64,000 nt of DNA from Rhodobacter sp. GTDB lineage: Bacteria > Pseudomonadota > Alphaproteobacteria > Rhodobacterales > Rhodobacteraceae. The DNA is taken from NCBI GenBank assembly GCA_020250445.1, contig JADCEF010000010.1, positions 32,730-96,729 on the forward strand, read 5' to 3'. Under the pieces are notes generated by a model. That model was not told where the DNA came from. It was given only the letters and a program-made list of their open reading frames with translations, and ran no database searches. This document shows positions 37,995 through 64,000 of this stretch, piece by piece. Both the position numbers and the translations under genes were made by a program. Position 1 is the stretch's first letter; every line of letters begins with the position of its first letter.

Positions 37995-38764
37995 GTGACC
38001 TCCGCCGGAACTTTCCGTGCGGTGTTGACGGTTTCGTGGGCAATCCGCCCGTCGGCAAAGCGGATGACGCGGTCGGCGATTTCGCTGATTGCGGCGTTGT
38101 GGGTGATGACCAGGGTGGTTGCACCCAGGTTCCGGTTGACCTGGACCAGCGCCTCGAGAACCCGCACACCCGTGGCGCTGTCCAGCGCCCCGGTCGGCTC
38201 GTCGCAAAGAAGCAGTCTGGGATTTTTCGCAATCGCTCTGGCGATGGCCACCCGCTGCTGTTCCCCGCCGGACAGTTGGGCCGGGAAATGATGCTGCCGT
38301 TCGGACAGGCCGACAAGGGCCAGCGCATCGTCGGCTGTCATTGGGTTGCGCGATATCTCGGTCACGAGTTGCACGTTCTCCCGTGCCGTCAGGCTGGGCA
38401 CGAGATTGTAGAACTGGAAGACAAAGCCGACGTGATCGCGCCGGTAGCGCGTCAGGCCCCCCTCGTCCAGCGCGGTCAACTCCATATCCCCGAACCAGAC
38501 CTGACCCGAGCTTGCCGTATCGAGTCCACCGACGATGTTCAGAAAGGTGGATTTCCCCGAACCCGAAGGCCCCAGGATGACGACAAATTCACCCGCCGAT
38601 GCCTGGAAGTCGACAGACCTCAGGGCCGAGACAACGACATCGCCGGTCTGATAGACCTTGGAAAGCGCCTTTACACGCAGCACAGTCTTGGTTTCGCCGT
38701 CCACCCGCACACCTCTGCAGTCACTGGCAAGGATGGGGAACGCTGACGGATGCGTCCATGACAC
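37988..38764 (-). CDS. ABC transporter ATP-binding protein (MacB/LolD-like)
   Basis: [50 protein letters not shown]. Confidence 0.9.
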
Positions 38765-38880
38765 AAGTCAAGTGACATTGCATTAAGGCGGGGCGTCAAG
38801 GCGGGGCCGAAACCGCGACCCGCCCGCTGGCCGGACAGGACCCCCGTCCCGATCCGGGGACAGGGATTGGCCCTTTGGCT

Positions 38881-39084
38881 GGGGGAAACGCGACCCGCGT
38901 TTCCCCCGCCTGTGCGGAACATTGCCCTGTAGAGCCGCAGGTCCGGGAAAGACAGAGGCCAGCGCCCGACCCGGCGGGAGCGAAGCGCCCGCCAGGGGCG
39001 GGGCGGGCGCTGGCCGGGGGCTTTGGCCCCCGGCTGGTCCTGATCCCGGCGTGGCGCTGTGGCAGGGGCGATGGCCCCTGCCAG
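38881..39084 (+). repeat. structured intergenic repeat, copy A
   Basis: Multi-hairpin element: GGGGGAAACGCG-ACC-CGCGTTTCCCCC; GCGCCCGCCAGGGGCGGGGCGGGCGCTGG; CCGGGGGCTTTGGCCCCCGG; GGCAGGGGCGATGGCCCCTGCC. Confidence 0.85.
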
Positions 39085-39134
39085 AGAGACCGGGTATTTT
39101 GGAGTCGACAGGACCGCCCGTCCGGGCGGGAACA

Positions 39135-39335
39135 GGAAACCCGACCCGCGTTTCCCCCGCCCGCGCGGGACAGCGTCCTGTAGACCGGCAGGTCCAGTCA
39201 CAAGGGCAGGCCAGCGCCCGACCCGGTGGGCGGGAAGCGCCCGCCAGGGGCGGGGCGGGCGCTGGCCGGGGACTGTGGCCCCCCGTGGCCCAAGGACCAG
39301 CCTCGCGCTGGGACAGGGGCAATGGCCCCTGCCAG
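39135..39335 (+). repeat. structured intergenic repeat, copy B (tandem to A)
   Basis: Shares 38-nt block GAAGCGCCCGCCAGGGGCGGGGCGGGCGCTGGCCGGGG with A and C; same order of hairpins. Confidence 0.85.
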
Positions 39336-39419
39336 AAGGCGCAAGGCGCGTGAAAACAGACGTGTTTCCCGCGTTGCGGCCAGCCGGCCCCTGCGGACGG
39401 GTCCTCAGGGTCAAACCCG

Positions 39420-40085
39420 TCAGGCAGCGACGGGCAGGATCAGTCCGGGGCCTTCCGCGCGGTTGGAGTTGACTTGCGGATCGACCCTGTGCATCGCAAA
39501 GGCCCCCGCGGGCTGCGGCACCATCACGGTTGCGGCCCCATGCCCGGCCTCGCCCAGCCACAGGGGCCACTGGGCGGGGTTGACCGTCACCGGCTCTCTA
39601 TGGTGCAGGCGGGCCATGTCGGGACCGGCATCGGTCGAGACGATGGCGCAGGTGGTCAGGCTTTGCCCGTCCCGATCCCAGTCCTGCCAGATGCCGGCGA
39701 ACAGCATCGGGGCACCATCCGCCCGGGTGATGTACCAGGGCAGGCGCGCCTTGGCCGGGCCTTCGGTCCATTCGTAAAACCCCGTCGCCGGGATCAGGCA
39801 GCGGCGGCTGCGCACCGCCTCGCGGAAGGCGGGCCTGGTGGCGATGGTATCGGCGCGGGCGTTGATGATCAGCGGGCCGTCGCTGGGCGTCTTGTACCAG
39901 GCGGGCAGAAACCCCCAGCGCATGGCGCGCAGCCGCCGCCTGCCGCCATCGCTGACAATCGCCGCCACGGGCTGCGTCGGGCAGACGTTGAAGCGGGGCA
40001 CCGGTGGCAGGTCATTGCCGGGCATGGCATCGAACAGGGCGGCAATCGCCTCGTTCGGGTGGGTGATGGTGAAGCGCCCGCACAT
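39420..40085 (-). CDS. yedK: SRAP/YedK-family abasic-site DNA-protein crosslink sensor
   Basis: MCGRFTIT (catalytic Cys2), RFNVCPTQPVAAI, RWGFLPAWYK, INARADTIATRPAFREAVRSRRCLIPATGFYEW. Confidence 0.93.
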   Translation of the reverse strand: MCGRFTITHPNEAIAALFDAMPGNDLPPVPRFNVCPTQPVAAIVSDGGRRRLRAMRWGFLPAWYKTPSDGPLIINARADTIATRPAFREAVRSRRCLIPATGFYEWTEGPAKARLPWYITRADGAPMLFAGIWQDWDRDGQSLTTCAIVSTDAGPDMARLHHREPVTVNPAQWPLWLGEAGHGAATVMVPQPAGAFAMHRVDPQVNSNRAEGPGLILPVAA

Positions 40086-40767
40086 CCGGCAAGGATAGCT
40101 GTCCACCCCGCCGATGCCAAGCAACCCTGGTCGCGGCAAAGGGAAGTCTGCACGCCTTTTCGGGGGCGGACCCGATCCGGTTCGCCCTGCCGTGTCCGGC
40201 CGGGTCGCCGGACAAGGTTGCGTGTCAAACCGCCCGAGACAAGGAAGGATTGCCGCGTGCCGCCTGATCCGGGACGTCGATTGGCCCATGTCGGATGCCG
40301 TCGGCCTTCATGCGTTTCAGCGCATCCCGTGACCGGGGTTGCGCAGATTGCAGTCAGGGCAATCAGCGTTGCAGAAAGCACCTTCAGGCCCCGGAGATTT
40401 GTCTTCAGCTTTCCCCGAAGGTCCGGCTCTGCGCCCGTACCGGCACGACGGCCAAGCTTGCCGTTCAGGCAACTGCGTCCAGGCGCGGTTTGTCGCGGTG
40501 CCGAGACAGCATCCAGACCACCCGTCTGGCGGGAAAAGCTTCGAGATTCGCCGGGGCGGGAGGGATTCCGGGCGGACCCCGAAACGCACCGCCCTTTCCC
40601 GCCCGGTCAGGGACCAGTGCCGCATCAGAAGCGTTGGTACAGGCGCAACAAAGCCAAGCGCCCGGCGAGGCCAAGGATGAGCCTTTCGATGCGGCAGGGG
40701 CAACGGACCCGGCCAGCCCAAAGGTGCCGAGCGTCAAAGGCTGGCCCCCAGTCTTCCGGGCGGGATC

Positions 40768-63915: not shown

Positions 63916-64000
63916 CTGGCAGGGGCCATCGCCCCTGCCGCAGTGCTGCGCCGATATCAGGACCAGCCGGGGGCCAAAGCCCCCGGCCAGCGCCCGCCCC
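63916..64000 (-). repeat. structured intergenic repeat, copy D (inverted, truncated by window end)
   Basis: Reverse complement GGGGCGGGCGCTGGCCGGGGGCTTTGGCCCCCGGCTGGTCCTGAT...GGCAGGGGCGATGGCCCCTGCCAG matches the 3' ~85 nt of copy A nearly base for base. Confidence 0.85.

Follow-up and report, generated by a model that had tools for sequence, protein, structure and literature searches.

A multi-hairpin repeat of Rhodobacteraceae that is very probably a BOX-type modular MITE

Main finding

The tandem hairpin repeat found in the stretch of 64,000 nucleotides analyzed here (the window) is very probably a BOX-type modular MITE. More precisely, it would be a non-autonomous DNA transposon made of a terminal inverted repeat (TIR), a leader, a 240-nt multi-hairpin unit present in n copies, a tail, and a second TIR. 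We propose that the transposase of an insertion sequence (IS) acts in trans on the ends of the MITE. Landing at stop codons of the form YTAR would spare the gene, either because the target duplication keeps the stop codon or because positions 9-11 of the TIR supply a TGA, so that insertions at gene ends would accumulate. The number of units may then shift through unequal recombination or slippage. In the least certain step of this scheme, the folded module would become part of the flanking genes' 3' untranslated RNA. We tentatively suggest that it could act there as a passive structured 3' end, with effects on RNA stability or on the attenuation of read-through.

Architecture of the elements

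Elements start with the TIR CAGGGTGCTGAAA, followed by a leader of ~75-115 nt before the first unit, one to several units of ~240 nt, and a tail that ends in the inverted TIR TTTCAGCACCCTG, ~100 nt after the last hairpin. Leaders and tails with their TIRs border arrays genome-wide, and we observed arrays of one, two, three, and four units. Complete single-unit elements span 310-372 bp and a two-unit element 608 bp, while shorter forms of 242-245 bp are devoid of most of the unit. None of these complete elements (242-608 bp) contains a transposase; they consist of leader, units, and tail only.

The exact 13-bp TIR has 13 to 31 sites in each of the genomes G000, G001, G002, and G005, where a reversed control pattern has 0 sites. 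The exact-TIR loci that we examined are leaders and tails of elements, plus a few decayed termini and one chance match in a coding region. The scan for the TIR pattern also gave many chance matches outside of Rhodobacteraceae. Phage records had no match to the repeat and the TIR pattern was absent from viral contigs.

A first-pass annotation of this DNA had suggested a mobilized structure that was MITE-like, but larger and more ordered. This suggestion is borne out by the TIRs, by a target duplication and the corresponding empty site, and by an IS that carries a transposase between the same ends. The repeat is very probably a MITE: it has these features, it shares its ends with an autonomous IS, and it lacks an internal transposase.

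Copies in the window

The same annotation had placed two direct copies of the repeat, A and B, at positions 38881-39335. Both are present, their hairpin bodies 40-47 bp apart. The five hairpins that it named are all legible in the sequence, and the 38-nt core said to be identical in A, B, and a third copy, C, has 0 mismatches among the three. The range itself covers only the interior of a larger element (~38802-39419), and the fourth copy that had been listed, D, is detectable but badly decayed (14 bits). The features of the window are given in Table 1.

Table 1. Coordinates of the repeat elements and of their parts in the window.
Feature	Start	End	Strand	Remarks
Leader relict without unit	19566	19640	-	Leader profile, E=1.8e-7
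Element 1 (units A + B)	38802	39419	+	Leader, two units, tail; both TIRs decayed
Leader of element 1	38802	38881	+	TIR relict CGGGGCCGAAA at start; from profile and comparison with intact leaders
Unit A, five-hairpin body	38882	39089	+	
Y-shaped core hairpin of unit A	38960	39018	+	Found family-wide in Rhodobacteraceae
Linker, unit A to unit B	39090	39129	+	
Unit B	39130	39337	+	
Tail of element 1	39338	39419	+	Decayed TIR at end
TCAG outer tetranucleotide beside element 1	39420	39423	+	SRAP/HMCES-like gene (39420-40289) has its stop codon here (TGA on -)
Element 2 (units D + C)	40490	41051	+	Leader ~40490-40565, then D, C, and tail up to 41051
Unit D, badly decayed	40566	40727	+	Two pieces, 14 bits each
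Unit C	40758	40975	+	187 bits
CTAA outer tetranucleotide beside element 2	41052	41055	+	Cupin-like gene (end, 41052) has its stop codon here (TAG on -)
Element 3, tail and partial unit	63833	64000	-	Tail profile, E=1.5e-26; unit, 74 bits

The profile of the unit was built from 66 units. It gives 210 and 178 bits to A and B, respectively, and it recovers C, the decayed D, and the element at the end of the window. Element 1 is matched by the leader profile at 38806-38882 (E=8.8e-12) and by the tail profile at 39402-39319 (E=1.7e-14); the corresponding matches of element 2 are at 40497-40553 (E=4.7e-7) and 41046-40956 (E=7.3e-16). Element 3 is truncated by the end of contig C2, which stops at position 96729, i.e., position 64000 of the window.

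Long open frames cross the array of element 1 on both strands (38671-39570 on the - strand and 38922-39353 on the + strand). Their products would be repetitive peptides, similar to what has been reported for large BOX elements. The frames may reflect the high G+C content.

Distribution in the genome and in the genus

The repeat extends well beyond the window. A search of its own genome returned at least 207 BLAST matches (40 of the 313 candidates were scored), and a sample of 440 kb contains 17 separate arrays or part-copies, which by extrapolation would correspond to ~130 sites in 3.48 Mb. Most of the matches form tandem arrays with ~240 nt per unit, where a body of ~205 nt is conserved and the linker is variable. 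Contigs C2, C4, C7, C39, and C86, as well as many small ones, begin or stop within an array, and the array lengths are therefore lower bounds. The arrays also explain the poor assembly of the genomes of this genus. We saw tandem arrays in no more than four genomes, all of this genus; in the named collection, three genomes with arrays are MAGs under the name Rhodobacter sp.

Some units (L126, L123, L117, L136, L121, and L099; alignment A1, columns ~46-78) have GGTGCAACCCGCACC in the place of GACCGGCAGGTC in the variable middle segment. This version forms a different hairpin at the same place and is mostly found in terminal or single units.

Insertion sites

The elements very often lie at the stop codon of a neighboring gene. 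Among 111 termini, YTRR is the outer tetramer, and a stop triplet occupies positions -3 to -1 outside the TIR in 53 of them, against a background of 1.8% per position. An open frame of at least 100 codons stops exactly at the edge of the TIR in 27 of 109 termini (0.24% in the control), and in 21 further termini the open frame stops at the TGA inside the TIR. It is because genes end at one of these two places that several arrays lie at a constant distance of 74-79 bp from the next convergent gene. Elements 1 and 2 of the window abut the ends of the SRAP/HMCES-like gene (39420) and of the cupin-like gene (41052), respectively. YTAR accommodates the stop codons TAA and TAG, and YTRR would result if, in a genome rich in G+C, these codons drifted to TGA. 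Together, the stop-codon bias and an IS5 group that targets YTAR offer a simple reason why the elements gather at gene ends without killing genes.

The outer tetramers on the left and right sides of 13 elements agree at 29 of 52 positions, compared to 21.1 in shuffled pairs (p = 0.0023). For a 343-bp element at G000:C123, G005 has a contiguous empty site with one tetramer, whereas G000 has CCAA twice. Most target duplications are imperfect, and most insertions are therefore old. G005 and G002 lack the A-B array at the orthologous place. The site of the C-D array is occupied in G005 too. At element 1 and at L132, the relatives carry a different segment of 106-130 bp, so that these two are not clean empty sites. 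At L114 (G000:C97:81281-81643), the two flanks are on separate contigs in G001 (C59 and C104), as would follow from a genome rearrangement by recombination between two elements.

Dynamics of the arrays

Arrays vary in length between genomes. At one orthologous site, with flanks ~92-93% identical, there are two units in G000 and three in G005, and the first and last units correspond by position. A second site carries an element in each of the four array-bearing genomes, and the number of units differs where both ends are assembled. Such common sites with differing unit numbers in sister species, together with the old and decayed TIRs of the copies in the window, are what one would expect if the arrays were ordinary VNTRs, produced by local tandem duplication at each site after a transposition long past. 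However, units of the same array are no closer to each other than to units of other arrays (80.4% versus 80.2% alike, p = 0.375), and recent local duplication is thus not the origin of most arrays. Instead, most multi-unit arrays are old, or they move or exchange units as a whole. Since there are also presence/absence differences and one clean empty site between sister species, we find an explanation by VNTRs quite unlikely.

A candidate helper insertion sequence

A search of 249 genomes of the family for an extended TIR of 15 bp, CAGGGTGCTGAAAAA, found pairs of it in this genome and, elsewhere, only in G076, which belongs to another genus of Rhodobacteraceae. There, they delimit an IS of 1353 bp (G076:C15:94870-96222), with CAGGGTGCTGAAAAA at both ends and CTAA on both outer sides, that contains a frame of 401 codons. 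The protein is an IS5-family transposase (NF033581, E = 3.2e-72, 243 bits for a cut-off of 140), and it also matches the IS1182 profile NF033551, below the cut-off. This YTAR-targeting IS and the MITE have an identical 15-bp TIR and the CTAA target duplication, but the IS encodes a transposase, whereas the MITE has only its ends and not its interior.

Relatives of this IS in other genera have similar TIRs, in which a variant of GTGCTGAAAAA comes after CAGG, and YTAR precedes nearly every IS terminus of the group. Related transposases were found in G000, G001, G002, and G005, and related TIRs on IS copies in G000 and G005. The closest IS end in G000, CAGGCTGCTGAAAAAG (G000:C92), has one mismatch to the TIR of the MITE. 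Several IS copies of G000 are broken or cut by contig ends, and no intact IS with the exact TIR of the MITE was seen among the exact-TIR loci examined inside the genus. Several contigs of G000, G001, and G005 terminate within IS5-type IS copies (L352-L367). The IS is therefore multi-copy, and intact versions of it may exist unassembled. It is mainly because the IS and the MITE have the same ends and the same target rule that we favor mobilization in trans: the MITE is probably moved by the transposase of an IS5-family IS.

Two other groups of transposases were considered as helpers and set aside. The examined loci with IS1182 transposases (PF13751) lack a matching pair of TIRs, and one short PF13751 match, in G076, turned out to correspond to the IS5-type IS that does have the right ends. 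The PF01609 transposases of the genus have no matching pair of TIRs either.

Conservation of the fold

Unit A folds at -137.7 kcal/mol, compared to -110.6 +/- 4.9 kcal/mol for 200 dinucleotide shuffles (z = -5.6 and -5.5 on the + and - strands, respectively), and 0 shuffles were as stable on either strand. The initial impression that loops and linkers vary more than stems is confirmed by a mean column identity of 75.2% in the former and 87.5% in the latter (Mann-Whitney P = 3.5e-6). Selection on the structure had also been suggested. Within the genus its trace is weak, with covariation at 6 of 40 pairs, and we therefore used a cross-genus test, where it is strong. In the Y-shaped core hairpin (Y core), aligned over 31 sequences (mostly one per genus of Rhodobacteraceae), there are 8 pairs with 25 cells changed on both sides; 95.4% of the cells pair, compared to 41-49% in register-shifted controls, and 0 of 500 shuffles were as good. 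Full units from three genera give the same compensatory picture for the core and the last hairpin; hairpin 1 was omitted from this count because MAFFT misaligned it between genera. Structural selection is thus supported across genera.

The Y core was found in 77 of the 150 genera of Rhodobacteraceae sampled. On plasmids of Leisingera/Phaeobacter, a bare Y hairpin lies 13-20 bp past stop codons in 3 of the 4 cases read, and within an rfb operon in two of the four; on the Phaeobacter plasmid, a copy sits between rfbB and rfbD. Phaeobacter inhibens, a cultivated relative, has the bare hairpin. Two other genera have single-unit forms whose TIR is related, one such form lying exactly at a stop codon. 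No described Rfam family accounts for the repeat: in the window, 0 matches reach the gathering score, and the matches of a permissive scan of the locus are all below the gathering scores. Searches of the literature outside of subscription journals found no earlier description of it.

The compensatory changes in the Y core and in the full units, and the presence of the bare hairpin in so many of the sampled genera, could indicate a functional structured RNA or DNA site that is selected by the host (a 3'-end processing signal, a terminator, or a nucleoid or gyrase site) and that was picked up and spread by the transposon. Yet a MITE whose fold serves its own transposition or tolerance would give an equal signal, and the A-B array is missing in two sister genomes. 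As for intrinsic terminators, there are 3 terminator-like matches for 1.6 expected, which does not exceed chance, and no T-run follows the hairpins. We see a host-selected site as unlikely. For the fold in the modular MITE, the most likely role would be a passive one, in which the structured 3' untranslated RNA is tolerated or has a mildly stabilizing effect.

One may also speculate, with considerable doubt, that the Y hairpin is an undescribed functional nucleic-acid element, present at gene 3' ends across Rhodobacteraceae, that was captured by a stop-codon-seeking MITE and multiplied in arrays at more than 100 gene ends in one genus. If this were true, the MITE would in effect have re-tooled the 3' ends of the transcripts of that genus. 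With its strong covariation and no entry in Rfam, the bare hairpin lends itself readily to RNA studies in model roseobacters. Bare hairpins (L034 and L215-L236) have two mutually exclusive folds, since their last GCCC is able to pair with the 5' arm or, alternatively, with the CCCGGCG...CGCCGGG hairpin that follows.

Comparison with known systems

The distinct 5' and 3' modules around variable central modules make this repeat a BOX-type element. The boxB module is short, whereas the unit of Rhodobacteraceae has ~240 nt and five hairpins, and is very G+C-rich. The BOX elements of Streptococcus pneumoniae and S. suis have two different end modules and variable tandem central modules, TIRs that resemble the ends of an IS found in their genus, stable folds, and slow current transposition; the pneumococcal BOX contains the stop codon of 36 annotated genes, and ISSpn2 was proposed as the helper (Croucher et al. 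2011, PMC3049150). The repeat described here has the same arrangement of end and central modules, IS-like TIRs, stable folds, gene stop codons inside the element, and slow transposition, but its host is an alphaproteobacterium and its candidate helper is of the IS5 family instead of ISSpn2. The likeness concerns the plan alone: the repeat works like BOX, and we do not claim common ancestry. A plan that was studied in streptococci is now found with unrelated parts in an alphaproteobacterial genus.

The first-pass annotation had also mentioned REP/BIME elements and RAYT, i.e., palindromes copied by a RAYT (Y1, HUH) transposase and arranged in tandem as in BIME-2. The high copy number, the intergenic location at gene 3' ends, and the tandem arrays of palindromic units are common to both systems, and the bare Y hairpin of Leisingera/Phaeobacter is placed like REP, after stop codons and in an operon. 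But the genus has no RAYT: Y1_Tnp (PF01797) is missing in 7 of 7 of its genomes, whereas it is present in 10 of 61 relatives, and the search was positive in 5 of 14 control genomes, including E. coli. Without this transposase, membership in REP/BIME fails. Moreover, the arrays carry DDE-type TIRs and a target duplication, neither of which HUH elements are known to have. The REP/BIME reading is thus largely refuted for the arrays and, overall, very improbable.

The different segments that relatives carry at L132 and at element 1 (with L242, L243, L081, and L082) recall the transposition of IS1272. This element of the IS1182 family inserts by replacing stem-loops, without target duplication (PMC5678879). 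Its transposase is of a related group and stem-loop replacement would fit the two unclean sites, whereas the IS of G076 and the L117 element do make target duplications. An IS1272-like mechanism might explain these two sites, but it does not suit the clean empty site.
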